A stretch of 26,479 nucleotides of DNA from positions 1 to 26,479 of the IMG/VR virus record IMGVR_UViG_3300031902_000047, one strand, 5' to 3'. A program made the translations under genes and the position numbers. Source of the stretch: a virus. Below are positions 13,247 through 26,479 of this stretch, piece after piece (positions within the stretch are counted from its first letter, which is position 1; every line of letters begins with the position of its first letter). The notes under the pieces were generated by a model. The model saw only the letters and a program-made list of their open reading frames with translations, was not told the origin of the DNA and searched no databases.

Positions 13247-15182
13247 TGCTCTTCTCCTTGGTGTTCGCCATGTGCAGAGCGGCGAAGTGGGTGGCTAGCG
13301 AACGCTTGTTCTCGTTCTCTTCCTGGATTACAACCTGCTGTAGCTTGGTCTGGTTGGTCTCGCGAGTCTTCTGCAGACCGACCATGTGACCAGTCATGCG
13401 CTCCTTCTTCTCGGCCTCCAGCTTCTGGATCATGCCCTGCGCCTGCTGAAGTTGGCCCTGCAACGCAGTGATCTGTGGGTTGTCAGTGGTGAAGAACCGA
13501 GAGCCGTCCGAGTAGCCCAGATGTCCAAAGATCTCCTTGCCAATCTCCACCATGTTGGCCCCCGGAATGGGGTTCTTCAGCATGTTGGTGAATGCGCTCA
13601 TCGCACTGAGGAACTTCTGAAGTTTCTGCGTGGGGTCTGTGGCACCCATGCCGACGTTCACGTTTACCGTGATCTCCTGATTCAGAAGTTCGTCGGTAAT
13701 CTCGTCTACGCCGAACTTTTGGTACAACTGGGCGTTCTTCGCGCACAGGCCCAGAATGACAGTATCCGTCTCGTAGTGCTGCTCGAGAAGAACAAGCTGA
13801 CGCAGTACAGGCTGCACGAATGTCTCGACGTAAGTGCGGATCAAGTACTCAACGAGCGTGCCCGTGCTGGAGTTCAGCATCGCCATGTTCCGCGCCGGGG
13901 CATGGCCCGCACCGCTGGTCATCAACCCCGCTGGGTTGAAGTTGCCCAGCAGTTCGTCCATGTCGAGATTGATGCGGTTCTGCTCCTCGTAGGCACTGCC
14001 GGTCACATCCGGCCAGCTGATTTCTCGGACGTCGTTGATGGGGTCGTTCATCATGACCACACCACCGGGAACGTTCCGCACCAGCCCGGAGAGGTCAACG
14101 TCCACGCCACGCTTTGCGAACCATTTCTTGTTCAGCGCGAACTTGACGTTGTCGATGCGTGAGTTCGCCACTTCATTGGCTTCATCAGCTAGTCCTCGGG
14201 CAAGCTGGGGAACTCCGCTGGGGATGACCTTGTGGGTTTCAAGGATGCAGCACCCCATGATGTACGGTCGCCGCCCGTGGAAAACAGACTCTTGGAGCGG
14301 GCGAGGATCAGATAGGAGAGCATGTTCTCCCAATGTATAGAACTCAACGTCGGCTCCGTTTCTTCTGTGGATGTGTCGCTGAACCCAGACGATGTCATAG
14401 TCCGTTACTCCTCTGGATTCTTGGCCGTATGGGTCTTCACGATCTTTACCGCGTGCCGTGCGAGTGCTGTCCATATTGGACGCCTGCGCAAACGTGATTT
14501 CCATTTCCTTCCAGTCGCCGGAGACCATCTTGGCCTTGACGTCCATGGAGTACATGGGGATGCAGTGAATCCAGTATGGGCTGGTGTTCACTGGGTCGAT
14601 CCAGTTGGCGCTGGGGTCGAACCGACAATTCTCGATCGGCAGCAAGTCAACGACAGGAACGTCGCGACCTGAAGTGTCCCAGTAGGCGTGCGCAACAGCG
14701 CAGCCCACGGTTTGCGCGTCCTGTAGCCCTCCCAGCACGGTCTGGAACCACGGGATGGTGCGTGTCAATCTATATTGAATGAGTTGCTTGTTGATTTCGG
14801 CGCTGGCGATCTGTACCTTGTCGCTCTGGTCGCCCGCCTCCATGCTAACCACATCCATATTTGAGAAGAACGCAGCAGCGGCGGCTGATTCATTCTTACG
14901 AATGACACTGCGGACCTTCGGACGATACAGTTTGGAGCGCTTATCGTAAGCGGGAGCAGAATACTTTGAATCGCTGGGGTGCTGATTGTTGAATGCACGG
15001 ATGCCATCTTCAAACCCCTTACGGAAGTTCGAGTCCATATAGTTCGTACTGGCCCGATACGCTGACCGTGCCAGCGTCAGATAGTTTGTCTGGTCCCGAG
15101 TTTCGCCGTCTGAGGCATCTCGGTCAGTAGGCTCCGCGACTTGCGCCGTCGGCGGCTGCGGGCGACCCATTATTTCTGCCAT
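13236..15182 (-). CDS. Portal protein (podovirus/P22-like size)
   Basis: The protein is 648 residues from ATG 15182, preceded by TTGGAG at good spacing; ATG 15170 (MGRPQPP) in the TAATG junction is the alternative. Blocks include YLTLARSAYRASTNYMDSNF, YRPKVRSVIRKNESAAAAAF, a wing region (DYDIVWVQRHIHRRNGADVE, YTLGEHALLSDPRPLQES), RRPYIMGCCILETHKVIPSG, then the helical crown-side segment VPQLARGLADEANEVANSRI, VKFALNKKWF, and a Gln-rich coiled tail (LQGQLQQAQGMIQKLEAEKK). It forms the dodecameric DNA entry ring. Size and blocks fit the large portals of P22-like phages. The start region is inside the 3' end of a homing-type endonuclease gene. Confidence 0.88.
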   Translation of the reverse strand: MAEIMGRPQPPTAQVAEPTDRDASDGETRDQTNYLTLARSAYRASTNYMDSNFRKGFEDGIRAFNNQHPSDSKYSAPAYDKRSKLYRPKVRSVIRKNESAAAAAFFSNMDVVSMEAGDQSDKVQIASAEINKQLIQYRLTRTIPWFQTVLGGLQDAQTVGCAVAHAYWDTSGRDVPVVDLLPIENCRFDPSANWIDPVNTSPYWIHCIPMYSMDVKAKMVSGDWKEMEITFAQASNMDSTRTARGKDREDPYGQESRGVTDYDIVWVQRHIHRRNGADVEFYTLGEHALLSDPRPLQESVFHGRRPYIMGCCILETHKVIPSGVPQLARGLADEANEVANSRIDNVKFALNKKWFAKRGVDVDLSGLVRNVPGGVVMMNDPINDVREISWPDVTGSAYEEQNRINLDMDELLGNFNPAGLMTSGAGHAPARNMAMLNSSTGTLVEYLIRTYVETFVQPVLRQLVLLEQHYETDTVILGLCAKNAQLYQKFGVDEITDELLNQEITVNVNVGMGATDPTQKLQKFLSAMSAFTNMLKNPIPGANMVEIGKEIFGHLGYSDGSRFFTTDNPQITALQGQLQQAQGMIQKLEAEKKERMTGHMVGLQKTRETNQTKLQQVVIQEENENKRSLATHFAALHMANTKEKSSGK

Positions 15183-15625
15183 GTCAGAACTCCAAGAATA
15201 TCTGAAAACGGTCGGTTTTCTTTCATGCACTCTATGAATGCGAACCTGGACTGCCTTGGAGCATCCCAGCGTAACCTTTGCCCTCGGGACATTCTTTTCT
15301 TGGCTTCGTCACCGTACGAAAATCCAATGGAGCCTTCTCCGCCGTCAGTTAGGTTGTACCCCTTAGGGAACTTAGTTCCCCACTTGTCAATAGCTTCAAC
15401 TTCAGCGAGTGCTAGAAGTTCTTTATCTGCATCACCCGAGTACAGTACGCTAACTTCAAAGCTATCTGCGCCGTACTTTCTAATGGCCCTGGACACTGCG
15501 TAATCAACTTCAGTGCTGCGGGCTACCGAAATGTGCTTCAGAACCCGGCCCCTAGGTGTCGGGTCTACTGATTTCCCAATGTAGCATTCCCCGCTTGGAA
15601 ATTTAAGCTGATAGATGCAACTCAT
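15170..15625 (-). CDS. GIY-YIG homing-type endonuclease with NUMOD3-like motif
   Basis: The protein has 151 residues from ATG 15625 (ATGA overlap with the gene before). The N-terminus MSCIYQLKFPSGECYIGKS has the GIY-YIG layout, with Cys in place of the first Gly; the catalytic Tyr and an Arg (around RGRVLKH, residues 26-32) are present, and a Glu lies in LALAEVEAID. GYNLTDGGEGSIGFSYGDEA and KKRMSRGQRLRW make a NUMOD3-like DNA-binding segment. Such free-standing endonucleases nick DNA near the site that lacks them and spread with it. It sits directly before the portal gene, overlapping its start. The loss of the first Gly may lower activity; whether it is active is unknown. Confidence 0.85.
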   Translation of the reverse strand: MSCIYQLKFPSGECYIGKSVDPTPRGRVLKHISVARSTEVDYAVSRAIRKYGADSFEVSVLYSGDADKELLALAEVEAIDKWGTKFPKGYNLTDGGEGSIGFSYGDEAKKRMSRGQRLRWDAPRQSRFAFIECMKENRPFSDILGVLTWQK

Positions 15626-18945: not shown

Positions 18946-20547
18946 TTACACGTACTCGGGCTCGATGTACCCCGGCTCCTTGAAGCTCGGGGCGTGTGGC
19001 TCCATGTCGTAGATGCGGGACGTTGCGTCGATCACGTCTTTCTTGCCGCCGAATGGGAAGAAGTGCGCCTGCAAGCGGAGTTCCTTGGCAAGGTCGTAGA
19101 TCTTCTTGCTCTCGTCCTGTCTGCGGATGGGCTGCGCTACTCGGTAGGCATACCCAGTGTTGATCAACTTGCGCTGTGTGGACGTCAGATTCTTCTCGTC
19201 GGTCTCATAGGGCAAGAAGAACTTGTGCAGGCGGAAGTCAGGGCCGAGGCGCTGCACCCGGTCGTTCTTCGCTCCTTCTCCATCGCGGGGCCATGCAAGC
19301 TCCTCGATGTTGAAGTACCCACCACCCTGAGGAGTAGCCATCTGCTCCTTGAAGTAGTCGAGGTCGGCCTGCGCGCCGAAGGACTCATAGCCGAACTTGA
19401 CGTTCTGCACTCCCGTGGCTCGCTTCCACTTGTGGTACATCTGTGCGCTGCGCACCCACCGCTCGCGGAGATCCATCCGGTGGTTGAAGCCATCCAGAAG
19501 ATACTTGTTGTTCGCGTAGTCCAGACCCAGCACAACGATGGCAGTCTTGTCACTTCCCTTCTTCACACTGCGTGCGGGGTCAACCATGATGTAGACGTTG
19601 AGTGTCTCGGGGCGTACCTCGTAGACGCCAAGGTCTGCCACGTTGAACATGCGCTGCTGACCAGCCAGCGGGTTCTGCAACATCTGGCAGGAGATAGTAG
19701 CCTCGCCCTGCGCGATGACCTTCGCGGCCCAGACCTCGCGAGTGAAGAATACTGGCTCGCCGGTGAATGTGCCGTCGTCCGTGGCGGGGTACATGCGGAT
19801 CTTCACAGCCTTGCGCTGGATCATCGTCTCGTACGTATCTGCGTACGAGTACCGGGTGCCGATGTGCCACTTCCGCCCGCCAGCCTTTCCCAAGTTGTCA
19901 GATAGCTCCCACGCAGATGTGGTCTTCTGGATCTGCTCGGGGGTGCTGACACTGCCCTCGGTCACGACGTCATCGTACACGAGGAGTTCAAAGTGCTTGG
20001 AGACTGGCTGGCCGTCCACGAGGCCGTGAGCCTCTATGGTACGTTCCTTCGGATTGCTTGCGCGCCTGACGGTCAACCCGTTGTCTAGAGACCAGCTAGG
20101 CGAGTCCTTCTGAGGATTGGCGTAGAACGTAGTCGGGAAGAGGGAGATGAGGTCTTGGTTCTTCTCAAGCTCTTGCTGAATCTGTGCGAGGAATGCCTTA
20201 GCAATGGGCTTCGTGTGGGAAAATATGCCGATCGTGATCTCAGGATTCCTGCAGACTTCCTGAATAATGCCAGCATACGTGATGATTGTTGACTTGTAGT
20301 GCTCGCGTGCCCAGAGATCCAGATGTCCATCCGGACTGGCCTCGACTTCGCGACAACGGGCATAGAGCCACGGGTGAACAGCGTCCAGTCGGTGAAGTAC
20401 CCGAACGAGAAGATAGTATCTATCGTGGAGGGCGAGCCACGCTCGGGTTTCCGGACCTGGAACTGCCGCCTCGAGGATCTTCCAGAGGTCGGCAATATCC
20501 TTGAACTCTGCGGCATGTAGCCTCTCGCTAATTTCCTGGGGAAACAT
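18946..20547 (-). CDS. terL: Terminase large subunit (ATPase and nuclease)
   Basis: The protein has 533 residues from ATG 20547 with GGGAGGT upstream, overlapping the small-subunit gene by 20 bases. The N-terminal ATPase shows an atypical Walker A (AREHYKST, residues 80-87) after HLDLWA and a Walker B acidic pair in FELLVYDDVV (Asp192-Asp193). The C-terminal nuclease has YIMVDPARS with Asp323 and a following DKTAI, a middle DYANNKYLLDGF, and a late KKDVIDATSRIYDM that supplies another Asp. This is the motor that cuts concatemers and packs DNA into the procapsid through the portal. Size is typical. The packaging style (headful or cos) cannot be read from this. Confidence 0.92.
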   Translation of the reverse strand: MFPQEISERLHAAEFKDIADLWKILEAAVPGPETRAWLALHDRYYLLVRVLHRLDAVHPWLYARCREVEASPDGHLDLWAREHYKSTIITYAGIIQEVCRNPEITIGIFSHTKPIAKAFLAQIQQELEKNQDLISLFPTTFYANPQKDSPSWSLDNGLTVRRASNPKERTIEAHGLVDGQPVSKHFELLVYDDVVTEGSVSTPEQIQKTTSAWELSDNLGKAGGRKWHIGTRYSYADTYETMIQRKAVKIRMYPATDDGTFTGEPVFFTREVWAAKVIAQGEATISCQMLQNPLAGQQRMFNVADLGVYEVRPETLNVYIMVDPARSVKKGSDKTAIVVLGLDYANNKYLLDGFNHRMDLRERWVRSAQMYHKWKRATGVQNVKFGYESFGAQADLDYFKEQMATPQGGGYFNIEELAWPRDGEGAKNDRVQRLGPDFRLHKFFLPYETDEKNLTSTQRKLINTGYAYRVAQPIRRQDESKKIYDLAKELRLQAHFFPFGGKKDVIDATSRIYDMEPHAPSFKEPGYIEPEYV

Positions 20548-22386: not shown

Positions 22387-22416
22387 ATATACCCCCTAAA
22401 TGGCATGGCATGGGGC

Positions 22417-22446
22417 TTGCATGTACTGTGGGCTGCAATGTTGCAG
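22417..22446 (+). promoter_or_regulatory. Possible promoter/operator of the 22470 gene
   Basis: TTGCAT at 22417-22422, inside the same GGGCTTGCAT context as both late promoters, is followed by a poor -10 candidate (TGTTGC, 22439-22444). A perfect 14-base palindrome CTGCAATGTTGCAG (22433-22446) covers that spot. A weak promoter under an operator is one reading; the -10 is far from consensus, so the promoter call is uncertain. Confidence 0.4.
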
Positions 22447-22469
22447 TGACCTAGTGTGAGGTGCCTAAC

Positions 22470-23006
22470 ATGGCAAAGACCCGCAATACCCCCCCGGCCC
22501 CCGTGGCTGACGTAGTGGTGGCTGACGCCGCCCCCGTGGCTGACGCCGCCCCCGTGGCTGACGTAGTGGTGGCTGACGTAGTGGTGGCTGACGCACTGGC
22601 TAGCATGGCTGGTGTGCTGGCTGCACCGGCAAGCGTGGCTTTGGTTGACAAGCGCGCAGCCGCAGCCGCAGCCGCAGCGGCCAAAACCCCTGCGCTGGCG
22701 CAGGCCATCAGTGCAGCCGTGGCCGGTACTGTGCCGCGTCACATCCTTGCAAGCTTTGGTACGCTGGCTACCGCTACCGTCCCCACTGACATGCGGGGTA
22801 AGCTTGTGGTGCGTGGCCGGGACTACAACGCCCGTCAACATAACGCCACGTGGGCCGCAGCCATGCAAGCTTGCGTAGATGCCGCAGGCCCTGCTGGCGC
22901 ACCCGTAGAGGCATGCGTGCAGGCCGTGCTGGCTAGCAGCGTGCCGGGTAGCGGATGGCATAGCGTGCGGGCTTACCTTGAGCGGGGTTGGTTTAAGGTA
23001 GCCTAA
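22470..23006 (+). CDS. Alanine-rich protein with N-terminal VAD repeats
   Basis: The start ATG 22470 has GAGGTG upstream; an in-frame GTG at 22461 is less likely. The product has 178 residues. Residues about 11-40 are six tandem VADVV or VADAAP units, encoded by 15- and 18-base DNA repeats (22502-22596). Next comes an Ala-rich helix including nine Ala in a row from a GCAGCC hexamer repeat. The C-terminal domain looks folded and basic: HILASFGTLATATVPTDMRG, KLVVRGRDYNARQHNATWAA, PGSGWHSVRAYLERGWFKVA. No family is recognised. It is the only plus-strand gene between the late promoter and a strong terminator, has operator-like DNA in front, and could be a regulator or a DNA-binding protein; this is inference. 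Confidence 0.75.
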   Translation: MAKTRNTPPAPVADVVVADAAPVADAAPVADVVVADVVVADALASMAGVLAAPASVALVDKRAAAAAAAAAKTPALAQAISAAVAGTVPRHILASFGTLATATVPTDMRGKLVVRGRDYNARQHNATWAAAMQACVDAAGPAGAPVEACVQAVLASSVPGSGWHSVRAYLERGWFKVA

Positions 23007-23025
23007 GCCCGCTAGTCTGCACCCT

Positions 23026-23060
23026 AAGCCCCGCTAGCTTGCGCTAGCGGGGCTTTTCTA
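23026..23060 (+). terminator. Strong intrinsic terminator
   Basis: AAGCCCCGCTAGC (23026-23038) pairs perfectly with GCTAGCGGGGCTT (23043-23055) around a TTGC loop, and a short T-rich tail (TTTTCT) follows. It lies 20 bases after the stop of the gene at 22470-23006 and would end its transcript. Its opposite strand has an A-run before the stem and could end minus-strand readthrough weakly. Confidence 0.88.
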
Positions 23061-23070
23061 CGTCTGGTGC

Positions 23071-23190
23071 TGGCCTGCTGGCCTAGGCTGCGCATCGGCG
23101 CTGGCCTGCTGGCCTGCTGGCCTGCTGGCCTGCTGGCCTAGGCTGCGCATCGGCGCTGGCCTGCTGGCCTGCTGGTCTAGGCTGCGCACC
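23071..23190. repeat. Compound tandem repeat array (TGGCCTGC)n
   Basis: Three modules each consist of n copies of TGGCCTGC followed by TGGCCTAGGCTGCGCATC and GGCGC: n=1 at 23071-23101, n=4 at 23102-23156, n=2 at 23157-23190 (last module diverged and cut short as TGGTCTAGGCTGCGCACC). It is GC-rich and non-coding, directly after the terminator. There are no unique spacers, so it is not a CRISPR array. Possible iteron-like or packaging-signal role. Confidence 0.8.
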
Positions 23191-23199
23191 AGACTTGAA

Positions 23200-23310
23200 C
23201 AGACCCAGAACTGAGCGCACCGAAACTGACCAGTACAGATTCTGTACTGAGCCGAGCAGAACTGAACTGATCAGTATGGACTCAGAATCTGGGTGATCAG
23301 GTCTGATTTC
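23200..23310. promoter_or_regulatory. Cluster of palindromes and ACTGA motifs
   Basis: ACTGA occurs five times (23210, 23225, 23246, 23261, 23266). A perfect 19-base dyad CAGTACAGATTCTGTACTG lies at 23231-23249 and a perfect ACTGATCAGT at 23266-23275. ACCCAGAACTGA (23203-23214) and TCAGAATCTGGGT (23282-23294) form an outer imperfect inverted pair. A T-run (23308-23316) follows. The layout suggests operators or an origin-type structure. Confidence 0.6.
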
Positions 23311-23582
23311 TTTTTTCGCTTATGAATATCCGATAACTCGCGCATGTGCGAGATCAGAATCCATCTGGTCAGCTCTTGTTTTCCGTCCTGGATCAAGGTG
23401 GTCCGACCCCGGACAGATTTGGGGACATTTTGGAGCATACATTCACTCTACATTGGAGAGAAGATGTACTCTTTTTGCCCACTCTATCCCTCCTATCAAG
23501 CGACAAATTGTCCCATCGGTCTTCTCTAAAACAGTGCTCGATAGGGGAAACCCTTACATCATACAGTGCCCACTATCGGGGA
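23311..23582. other. AT-richer non-coding stretch
   Basis: No supported gene is visible here; plus-strand frames at 23344-23529 and 23346-23708 lack a ribosome site and have unnatural composition. It holds an imperfect palindrome CTCGCGCATGTGCGAG (23337-23352) and a degenerate direct repeat starting ACAGTGC (23531 and 23563, 32 bases apart). CGATAG (23539-23544) and CTATCG (23573-23578) form an inverted pair. The lower GC content contrasts with all neighbouring coding DNA. Confidence 0.5.
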
Positions 23583-23833
23583 CGTTATACGCAACGTATA
23601 CCGCTAAGTTGTTGTTTTATAAGGGTTTTTAGTGTCGGTTATATGTTATACGTTGGCAAAAAACCGCAGCACACGGCGGCGCGGGTGCGCGGGTGCGGGT
23701 ATATATAGTTTTAGATAATATAACAATATAACGTATAACCGAGCCAAAAACTCCAATAAAAACAAGCACTTGACGTTATACCATGCGTTATACGGAACTC
23801 TATGCCATATAACGAACACTGGCCGTGTTATAC
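23583..23833. repeat. About nine GTTATAC(G) motifs in both orientations
   Basis: CGTTATAC-type boxes occur at 23583, 23645, 23774, 23786 and 23827 (plus) and as CGTATAAC or TATAAC forms at 23595, 23719, 23727-23739 and 23808. Two neighbouring pairs have start-to-start distances of 12 bases (23583/23595 and 23774/23786). The last copy overlaps the -10 box of the promoter for the gene at 23877. The DNA is AT-rich. This is the pattern of a repressor operator set or replication iterons. Confidence 0.7.
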
Positions 23834-23856
23834 TGGCCTTGCCAGCGCATGCTGGC
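23826..23856 (+). promoter_or_regulatory. Extended -10 promoter with hairpin at transcript start
   Basis: TGTTATACT (23826-23834) is an extended -10 promoter element (TG-n-TATACT). No good -35 is present, as is usual for this class. The predicted start is near 23841, where GCCAGC-GCAT-GCTGGC (23841-23856) can form a hairpin at the 5' end of the mRNA. The -10 box also contains one GTTATAC motif, so binding there would block transcription. Confidence 0.65.
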
Positions 23857-23876
23857 GCACCCGTGAAGGATAGACC

Positions 23877-24143
23877 ATGAAGCTCAACCCCCATCCCTCC
23901 ACACATGCGATTCCAGAGAATCGCCGTGGCACTCGTACTTACCGTGGCTATGCGCGGCACTGCGCAGCAGGCAACGGACTCGCAGGCGGCATGGCCGCAC
24001 TGCTGGCCTCCCCCAAGCAGGAAGCCGCTGCCCGCAAGCTGTACGAACGCGGCACACGCCCCAGCCAAGTGAATGGCCGCGTGCTGCGCGCCGTGCTTGC
24101 GAGCATGCACCAGTTCTACGACTTCGACGACATCCCCTTCTAA
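23877..24143 (+). CDS. Small basic protein of unknown function
   Basis: The gene encodes 88 residues from ATG 23877, with AAGGA seven bases upstream, about 36 bases after the predicted transcript start. The N-terminal third is basic and extended (NPHPSTHAIPENRRGTRTYR, GYARHCAAGNG), followed by helices (GMAALLASPKQEAAARKLYE, VNGRVLRAVLASMHQ) and an acidic end (FYDFDDIPF). The pattern of basic helix and acidic tail could fit a nucleic-acid mimic or small regulator, but no family is recognised. First of a short plus-strand cassette that is probably expressed early because it has its own controlled promoter. Confidence 0.72.
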   Translation: MKLNPHPSTHAIPENRRGTRTYRGYARHCAAGNGLAGGMAALLASPKQEAAARKLYERGTRPSQVNGRVLRAVLASMHQFYDFDDIPF

Positions 24144-24155
24144 CCGGAGCAGACC

Positions 24156-24353
24156 ATGATCAGCAAGCAATATCGCATCTCCAAGCTCCCCTTCAAGGTG
24201 AAGGGTGAGCAGTTCTATCGTGTAGACGTCACCCACGGTCTGCTTGACACCGAGCCGCTGGGCGTGCTGCCCACATACGCATCTGCCCGCCAGACCGCGA
24301 TTGCCCACGCCAAGCGCACCGGCGTGAACCCCCTGATCCTGACAGGAGCCTGA
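24156..24353 (+). CDS. Small protein of unknown function
   Basis: The gene encodes 65 residues from ATG 24156 with GGAG seven to eight bases upstream, 12 bases after the previous stop, so it is co-transcribed. The sequence MISKQYRISKLPFKVKGEQF, YRVDVTHGLLDTEPLGVLPT and YASARQTAIAHAKRTGVNPL suggests a small beta-alpha fold: three strands and one helix. It is basic at the N-terminus. No motif is recognised. A small early protein of the phage is the best reading from context. Confidence 0.7.
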   Translation: MISKQYRISKLPFKVKGEQFYRVDVTHGLLDTEPLGVLPTYASARQTAIAHAKRTGVNPLILTGA

Positions 24354-24685
24354 GGGCTCTACGAAGCCTGCTCAACCACTGATTGACCTGATGCTCAAAA
24401 AGGTCGCAGCATTCCACTTCGTTCGCAACCCCGTGTTCGTGTTCGGCTACAAGTGGCCGAACGTGACAGCGAGTGCTAGCAGATTCGTGATGACTCCACC
24501 CCGCAAGCTGGATCGCGTGGGCTGGAGGGGCTCTACGAGGGTTACGAGCTTGCCCTGCGCGCTGCACCCATACAGGCCAGCACACGACGCTCCACCAAGC
24601 CCTCCAACCAGCCCTAGGAGCGCTCAAACCCCGCTGGGCTAGGCTACCCCCTAGGCTACCCCCTACAAACGCCTCCTAGCCCACT
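24354..24685 (+). other. Stretch without a firm gene; weak ORF and short repeats
   Basis: A plus-strand frame from ATG 24391 to 24642 (83 residues, MLKKVAAFHFVRNPVFVFGY at its start) has no ribosome site, and its second half is Pro/Arg/Ser-rich as in non-coding frames. Another frame reads well only after 24490 (RGLEGLYEGYELALRAAPIQ) but has no start and a stop before it. The two together could be the remains of one gene broken by a frameshift. GGGCTCTACGA occurs twice (24353-24363, 24527-24537), and CTAGGCTACCCC is repeated in tandem at 24639-24662. Confidence 0.4.
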
Positions 24686-24847
24686 ATGACCAACATCAGA
24701 TTCTACATGAAGAAGGGGCGCTGGCGGGTGACTGCCACTACCAAGACTGTCCCCGCGAATGAGTGGTGGGCCGCCATAAACCATGTGAAGTGCTTGAACC
24801 ACAAGCTGCGCATGGCTGAGAGTCACTTGAAGAATTGCCTGAGGTGA
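24686..24847 (+). CDS. Small basic protein, 53 residues, overlapping convergent gene
   Basis: The frame from ATG 24686 to TGA 24847 encodes MTNIRFYMKKGRWRVTATTK, TVPANEWWAAINHVKCLNHK and LRMAESHLKNCLR. It begins with a beta hairpin and ends with a long amphipathic, basic helix, a natural composition for a small nucleic-acid-binding protein. No clear ribosome site precedes it. Its last 25 bases overlap the end of the minus-strand primase/helicase gene, tail to tail. It would be the third gene of the plus-strand cassette. Family not recognised; a chance ORF cannot be excluded. Confidence 0.55.
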   Translation: MTNIRFYMKKGRWRVTATTKTVPANEWWAAINHVKCLNHKLRMAESHLKNCLR

Positions 24848-26479
24848 CTGGAGCAAGTCTTGGCATCGCTCCAATCGTCATCCCGACGACGGACTACCCA
24901 GAAGCGAGCCTGCACTCCGTCACGACCCTGAGGCTTGAGTGGGTTCCCCCCGTTCGCCAGAGAGAATCCTTGATTCTTTAGGGCATTGGTCAGGCTCTTA
25001 CTCCTGCCATGTGTGATCTCGCTTTCTGAGCACCCCCAGTAAATCATGGCGAGCTCCTTAGCTGACCACAATGCGCGGCCCTGTCCAATAAGTGGAAGTA
25101 TGAACTCGGGGTCACGCCACAGATCTTTAGCCCACAGATCCATGGGAGACATACCAGCCTCAGTAATCTCGTCCTTCCACTCGGTGTGTGGTGCCCACGC
25201 ATGGGGGTCGAAGCCAGAGGCTTTGATGTCCCACTCCAATAGGAACTGATACAGAGCCGCTGGACCTTCGTTCTCTGACCATCGCACATATTCTACCCAG
25301 TATGGCTGATCCCCTCTGTGGTCCACATCTGCCGACTGTGGCTCCCACTTGATTACGCAGGCCCGCCGGTCGTCTTGATCGAGCTTGATACAGTCATGAT
25401 AGTTAGACGTCAACGCTAGATTCGCGCAGTTGCGAACCTCATACTCAGGCTGGTTCTTCGTGTTGACAGTGATCTTCTTCGAGGTCGTAAGCAGTTTGAT
25501 CTTCTGCATCGCGAGCCCGCCGCTGTCAGCGAAGTCTGAGCGCACGCGGGGGAGCTCATCCACATGCACGAGTTGCTTCTTGGAGTAGACAGAGTTGAAC
25601 GCAGACCTCAGATTCTCCTCACTGATTAGCACTGCGTTGTCGCCGTATATCGCGCGCAGCGGGTCTAGGAAGAGGTTCTTGCCCACCCCACTGGGGCCGA
25701 ACAGCAGCAGGAGCGAGTTCATCTTGGAGCCTAGATTCTGGAGTGGGTACGCACACCACGAGATAATCCAGTTCCGGAGCCATTCGTCCCCGACGTTGTT
25801 GGTGAGTAACCGCAACCAGACGTCTACATCCCCCGGCTCTGGCTCGCACCCCATCCCCTTCCACAGATTAAGCTTGCGCGGCCCGCCACCCACATCCACA
25901 TCGATACGCTCGTGCCCCGGCATGTACGCGATGCTCTCAACCTCTACTCGCCGAGTATCCGTAATCCAAATCTTGGGGACGTTAGCCATCCGTACATCAT
26001 CCCCATGAGGGACTTCGGCCATGTAGTGCGCGAAGTTCACGTCTGTGAACGTCGCCCTACTCATGAGCGTGCCAGTCTCTTGCTCAGCAATGCGTCCTAT
26101 GTCGCGCACGACGCAGACCTCGCTATTCAGCTTTACTAGCATCTGCTCAAGCTGCGAGACATCGATTGGCTCACCAGCCCCCTCTAGGAACTCCAGCGCC
26201 ACGCGGTCGCCTACGGACATTCGGAAGTCGTCGAAGCCCTGATCTCCCAGAGGCACAGCATCGGGATGTGGGACACGGAGCGCGACTGCCGACCGGCCTG
26301 TGATAGCGAACAGCTTCGCAGCTAATCGATTCTCCGCAGCCTGCACCTGCCAATTCGTGCGTGCATTCGCGTCGAACACAATGACTGGCTCCAACGCCCG
26401 CGCCTTCCAAGGCAAGTCTCTCAACTCCGCGATAAGTGCTATCTCATTCTTCTGGGATGTCCACCCCCACACCCCGTTG
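24823..26479 (-). CDS. Primase/helicase-type replication protein, N-terminus missing
   Basis: The frame is open to the right edge; the GTG at 26472 lies inside the conserved NGVWGW sequence, so the protein starts outside the window. About 550 residues are visible. Residues 1-95 from that GTG resemble the TOPRIM-like DUF3854 domain (VWGWTSQKNE, EPVIVFDANARTN with Asp in the strand end). After about residue 210 comes a superfamily 3 helicase or DUF5906-like ATPase: Walker A GPSGVGKN (259-266), Walker B LVHVDEL (301-307) and a motif-C-like ANLALTSNYHDCIKLD. A C-terminal winged-helix-like part follows. It likely unwinds and primes the phage origin. Confidence 0.85.
   Translation of the reverse strand, partial: NGVWGWTSQKNEIALIAELRDLPWKARALEPVIVFDANARTNWQVQAAENRLAAKLFAITGRSAVALRVPHPDAVPLGDQGFDDFRMSVGDRVALEFLEGAGEPIDVSQLEQMLVKLNSEVCVVRDIGRIAEQETGTLMSRATFTDVNFAHYMAEVPHGDDVRMANVPKIWITDTRRVEVESIAYMPGHERIDVDVGGGPRKLNLWKGMGCEPEPGDVDVWLRLLTNNVGDEWLRNWIISWCAYPLQNLGSKMNSLLLLFGPSGVGKNLFLDPLRAIYGDNAVLISEENLRSAFNSVYSKKQLVHVDELPRVRSDFADSGGLAMQKIKLLTTSKKITVNTKNQPEYEVRNCANLALTSNYHDCIKLDQDDRRACVIKWEPQSADVDHRGDQPYWVEYVRWSENEGPAALYQFLLEWDIKASGFDPHAWAPHTEWKDEITEAGMSPMDLWAKDLWRDPEFILPLIGQGRALWSAKELAMIYWGCSESEITHGRSKSLTNALKNQGFSLANGGNPLKPQGRDGVQARFWVVRRRDDDWSDAKTCSSHLRQFFK

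Follow-up and report, generated by a model that had tools for sequence, protein, structure and literature searches.

P4 has type I iterons, a C-terminal winged-helix origin-binding domain in its alpha protein, and an ori that is separated from crr. Functionally, alpha is a primase-helicase fusion that replicates from its cognate ori (PMC6092414). The origins of PICIs directly follow the initiator gene on its 3' side and invariably have an AT-rich region with an iteron set to either side, a layout that, according to the authors, is shared by no other known bacterial replicon (PMC6092414). In a further study, the C-terminal domain of SaPI Rep recognizes iterons directly 3' of the rep gene, and the C-terminal domain of Cch2 alone binds the Cch2 origin of SCCmec, which there consists of three short direct-repeat iterons directly 3' of the helicase gene with no mirror layout reported in the passages on it (PMC7581432). 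Lastly, the primase-polymerase of NrS-1 recognizes TTTGGTTA sites, which are thought to set the start site (PMC8718748).

The window analyzed here, meaning the whole of a 26,479-base viral contig whose record states no completeness, contains a field of short boxes that resembles the PICI and SaPI origins in both aspects of their layout: two box sets flank an AT-rich core, and the field lies 3' of a presumed initiator gene, a primase-helicase (Table 1). As for the distance to that gene, box clusters start mostly 4–130 bp past the primase stop in primase-bearing relatives, and the field lies 1 kb from the primase in the window, where the primase stop and the terminase flank it and three small plus-strand ORFs (23877-24642) without family match separate it from the primase; one small ORF of 88 aa, used as a query, found no relatives. 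PICIs are satellites, whereas the phages described here encode a terminase, a portal and capsid proteins themselves. They also differ in that one or both sides carry a conserved arm, and in that this arm is retained between lineages as the box sequence changes. Terminase large (18946-20547) and small subunits, a portal, baseplate-like proteins and a major head protein are encoded on the minus strand of the contig. Together with the lack of an integrase match in the 12 records searched, this led us to reject the assignment of the window element to the PICIs. A homing-endonuclease-like ORF (phrog_314) lies within this structural gene region (window 15170-15625, minus strand). The likeness to Cch2 is that a helicase C-terminal domain binds short iterons directly 3' of its own gene, as is presumed here, and the differences are the direct-repeat arrangement, the element and the host. 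From the P4 side, the alpha protein is likewise a primase-helicase fusion; the P4 origin-binding domain was not among the Foldseek, VIA-align or profile matches, an absence that is uninformative on kinship with P4.

Statistically, the boxes are strongly concentrated. Exact GTTATAC occurs six times in the contig, with all six copies inside 250 bp (23584-23833), whereas shuffled contigs held a mean of 0.88 copies and reached six in 0 of 100 shuffles. The degenerate form GTTATA[C/T] occurs 10 times, again exclusively inside the field, against an expectation of 0.4–0.8 and a maximum of 5 in 5000 trials under a Markov model that preserves the AT-rich composition of the field. Thus, a count of the motif over the rest of the genome, which the first-pass annotation had suggested, returned neither form outside 23584-23833. 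That annotation had described a nine-fold motif: the clustering holds, and the number does not, being six for exact copies, 10 for GTTATA[C/T] and 11 in total with one GGTATAC, so that nine was an undercount or a mixed count. The box map bears out its statement that boxes occur in both orientations, and of the two pairs that it placed 12 bp apart, the one at 23775/23787 is exact, whereas the boxes at 23584/23596, although 12 bp apart, are oppositely oriented. The tightest spacings are in fact 7–8 bp, at 23638/23645 and 23718/23726/23733.

Table 1 Coordinates of the box field and of the primase-helicase in the window
Feature	Position	Strand	Detail
Outer boxes, terminase side	23584..23602		GTTATAC 23584-23590 (+), GGTATAC 23596-23602 (-)
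Arm 1	23606..23630	+	AAGTTGTTGTTTTATAAGGGTTTTT; kept in relatives
Inner boxes, left	23638..23651	+	GTTATAT 23638-23644, GTTATAC 23645-23651
Core	23652..23717		TATATATAG near 23700-23708, presumed melting site
Inner boxes, right	23718..23739	-	GTTATAT 23718-23724, GTTATAT 23726-23732, GTTATAC 23733-23739
Arm 2	23747..23771	-	AAGTGCTTGTTTTTATTGGAGTTTT
Outer boxes, primase side	23775..23833		GTTATAC 23775-23781 (+), 23787-23793 (+), GTTATAT 23807-23813 (-), GTTATAC 23827-23833 (+)
C-terminal winged-helix domain (predicted) of primase-helicase	24826..25215	-	Presumed box-binding part
Primase-helicase	24823..26478	-	DUF5906 SF3-type helicase; 5' end cut by contig end; presumed initiator

The field is more ordered than was initially recognized. 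Along the plus strand, the boxes and arms read + -, arm(+), + +, core, - - -, arm(-), + + - +, such that the inner boxes to the left and right of the core are oppositely oriented and two 25-bp arms are inverted around it. The GC minimum (0.30 over 100 bases, 23700-23799) lies just past the core. The maximum of the detrended cumulative GC skew falls within the field (23723) in the window, near it in one relative (G008) and elsewhere in four others, a pattern that argues neither for nor against an origin. The two arm matches score far above every other position in the contig. The IHF consensus WATCARNNNNTTR has no perfect match in the whole window, and both arms depart from it by one mismatch, at the third position, with the match of arm 1 lying on the opposite strand. 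An Rfam search of 22900-24000 gave no matches. Adjoining a second repeat array between the field and the terminase (23068-23190, CTGCTGGCC units) are imperfect palindromes at 23220-23380 (CAGTACAGATTCTGTACTG and others), in place of which L011 and L014 carry different repeats (CCCACCCAGTGCTGAG-like units). The second array has counterparts in relatives (L080:3430-3590 and L009:2839-3113), with 7–9 copies of ACCCCTA (aaacccctaggtag units) in L077, L078 and L080 and 16 copies of AAACCCT in L009, and its unit, like the field box, is lineage-dependent.

At the nucleotide level, a query with 22400-26479 matched none of 50,697 phage records, and relatives were found through IMG/VR searches with the terminase (29 loci) and the primase (23 loci), whose contigs are partly shared. 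The field type is present in 19 records including the window (about 14 independent lineages by our own count), and most of these records have a related primase-helicase or terminase gene. The closest relative holding the region, L008 (terminase 81% identity), has 9–10 copies of a different box, TGTGCTACAGT. In L011, L014, L016 and L032, the order of primase, about 3 kb, and terminase is kept, with an AT-rich field after the primase stop, and L033 resembles them in its field arrangement; the box in these five is GGTAACA or GGTAACT. L080 likewise has a field of GGTAACA boxes. Across lineages, the box varies among GTTATAC, GTGCTACA, GGTAACA, GGTGGCA, GTAGCGAC and TGTAAGA, while arm and layout are kept. 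Non-conservation in relatives had been named as grounds for discarding the motif, and here the outcome is split: the letters GTTATAC are not kept, and the field is, with a substituted box. An unbiased search for 7-mer clusters in all loci returned box clusters in most of them (GGTGGCA in L086 and L094, GGTAGCA in L090, GTAGCGA in L041, CTGTAAC in L087, TGTAATG in L075, GTAACAG in L079, GTTACAA in L084 and TGTAAGA in L068), although in several loci other repeat arrays outscore the field. The cluster lies 1.5–3.5 kb from the primase in L075, L079, L084 and L091, and no box field was seen within the stretch examined in the primase relatives L082, L083, L085 and L093, where it may lie elsewhere in the contig or be missing.

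Structurally, the 19 fields follow a recurrent plan: outer boxes (often three one way and one reversed), an arm and one to three inner boxes precede the core, which is followed by inner boxes in reverse orientation, often by an arm that is likewise reversed, and in some fields by further outer boxes. Box patterns for this map were picked by eye after the 7-mer search, and its box counts are therefore descriptive; the unbiased statistics include the GTTATAC shuffle count, the Markov count and the 7-mer cluster search. In nearly all 19 fields, the inner boxes are oppositely oriented across the core, and one or both sides have an arm. Exceptions are L009, with one inner group only, and L041, L086 and L090, with no arm above threshold, although L041 has a one-base arm variant (AAGTGGTTGTTTT) matched by a looser pattern; arm orientation differs in L079 and L087. 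The core of one relative also holds four 11-bp tandem copies of CCATACATGCC (L032:7202-7256) that are absent from the window. A DNA-pattern scan with the arm alone recovered the same family along with many contigs that have the arm in other contexts, without related primase or terminase (L042-L074), where the sequence AAGTKSTTGTTTTNNAANNGNTTTT in several cases lies just 5' of an ORF. Its presence in contigs without these genes suggests that the arm is a common host-factor (IHF-like) element, and on this view the arm would be the host-factor site and the box the site of a phage protein. A viral scan for the same box beside the arm gave two further matches, in contigs of 107 kb and 118 kb, and the one inspected (L096) has no field.

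Which protein would bind the boxes? The constant neighbor is the primase-helicase, whose helicase core matches that of NrS-1 (E 9e-23). The two proteins differ at the N-terminus, which is an AEP-type PrimPol in NrS-1 and only weakly DUF3854-like here, and in recognition, with NrS-1 reported to recognize its template through the HBD domain, as opposed to the presumed recognition of duplex iterons here. The last 130 residues of the primase, modelled with 19 relatives, gave a helix-rich domain (pLDDT 89.5) that we read as a winged helix. Z scores of about 5 are commonplace between winged helices; VIA-align placed the domain model at Z 5.2 to PriRep1 with dsDNA (7pds), among similar-scoring generic winged-helix proteins, and at Z 4.4 with 18% identity to the C-terminal tail of the NrS-1 polymerase. 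Foldseek on this domain found no significant match (best E 0.2), and its profile had no matches to solved sequences. Box distance and primase distance covary (simple Mantel test: r about 0.6, p 0.0004), whereas the partial Mantel test of box versus winged helix beyond the rest of the primase gave r 0.14 and p 0.13. The winged helix is thus not singled out over the helicase statistically, and assigning the boxes to it follows precedent.

Taken together, we posit that the field is probably a phage replication origin with boxes bound by the phage's own primase-helicase. The first-pass annotation had offered an iteron-type origin as one of two options, and the comparison supports it well through primase adjacency, mirror symmetry, an AT-rich core and an architecture kept with a lineage-specific box. 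Counting against it are the primase relatives in which the cluster is distant or no field was seen, the 1-kb gap to the primase in the window, the weak structural matches of the primase C-terminus and the partial Mantel result. Mechanistically, the C-terminal winged-helix domain of the primase-helicase would recognize the GTTATAC/T boxes and, since the boxes are opposed across the AT-rich core, a pair of helicase rings facing opposite ways could form and open the TATATATA core that lies between the two, where replication would start. A host DNA-bending protein of the IHF or HU type may bend the inverted arms, folding the outer boxes onto the inner ones. Each lineage has its own box, presumably co-evolved with the initiator, and related phages would thus not fire each other's origins.

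An origin could also have its boxes bound by another phage protein, such as a stand-alone winged-helix paralogue or a partition or packaging protein, and the missing statistical tie between box and primase winged helix is consistent with this. Indeed, stand-alone ORFs of 121–125 aa that align with the C-terminal winged-helix domain of the primase (GGKLIK...RYYAVRN) lie between primase and field in two relatives (L014:1859-2224 and L032:6688-7065); they are possibly copy-number regulators or competitors for the boxes. However, no such paralogue was seen between primase and field in the window or the other relatives, and the field is still kept there with the primase as its constant neighbor, such that we regard a different box-binding protein as unlikely.

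The other option in the first-pass annotation, an immunity-type repressor, corresponds to a multi-site operator at which a phage repressor or regulator on the boxes would control the plus-strand small ORFs or the primase, as in lysogenic immunity. The repetition of a single box in both orientations and its intergenic position just 5' of plus-strand ORFs would suit such a role, yet the field is kept in relatives without these small ORFs, and an operator has no need of a mirror layout around an AT-rich core. Moreover, the plus-strand promoter whose extended -10 the last box was said to overlap was not recovered: a sigma-70 consensus scan of 22900-24900 found no such promoter. Nor is there any sign of lysogeny, given that no tyrosine integrase was found in 12 records, which are fragments whose integrase may lie elsewhere, and that no related primase turned up in 84,980 genomes of bacteria and archaea. 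The repressor option thus found no support, and we consider an operator quite improbable. The same searches bear on an attachment site. In lambda, attP has protein boxes and IHF arms around a core, and the outer and inner boxes, IHF-like arms and core of the field resemble these parts, as if the boxes were arm-type integrase sites, the arms IHF sites and the core the crossover site. Against this, besides the missing tyrosine integrase and the lack of a related primase in the scanned bacterial and archaeal genomes, no serine recombinase scored above the cut-off in 15 records (also fragments), the integrase and recombinase searches yielding a single sub-threshold match (G025). With no associated integrase found in these fragment records, we rejected membership in the lambda-type attP class, and an attP reading appears very improbable.

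The box field is thus a real, ordered and conserved feature, and its most likely role is that of a replication origin in a family of phages, laid out like those of PICIs but with a lineage-swapped box; to date, this layout has been described for satellites of phages and not for phages themselves. More tentatively, it may represent a widespread, undescribed class of phage origin, in which a mirror-symmetric scaffold with a fixed host-factor arm takes up an initiator box that is swapped freely, so that every lineage has an origin to itself, with possible mutual exclusion of replication and a layout possibly shared with, or borrowed by, PICI-type satellites. Few uncultured phages have a known replication origin, and a recognizable scaffold with a lineage-specific box would make origins readable from sequence. 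The many natural pairs of box and primase also make the protein–DNA recognition code directly testable. If the origin reading is true, initiators of related phages are predicted to be specific for their own boxes, and a layout once stated to be exclusive to PICIs would also occur in phages that encode their own virion proteins.
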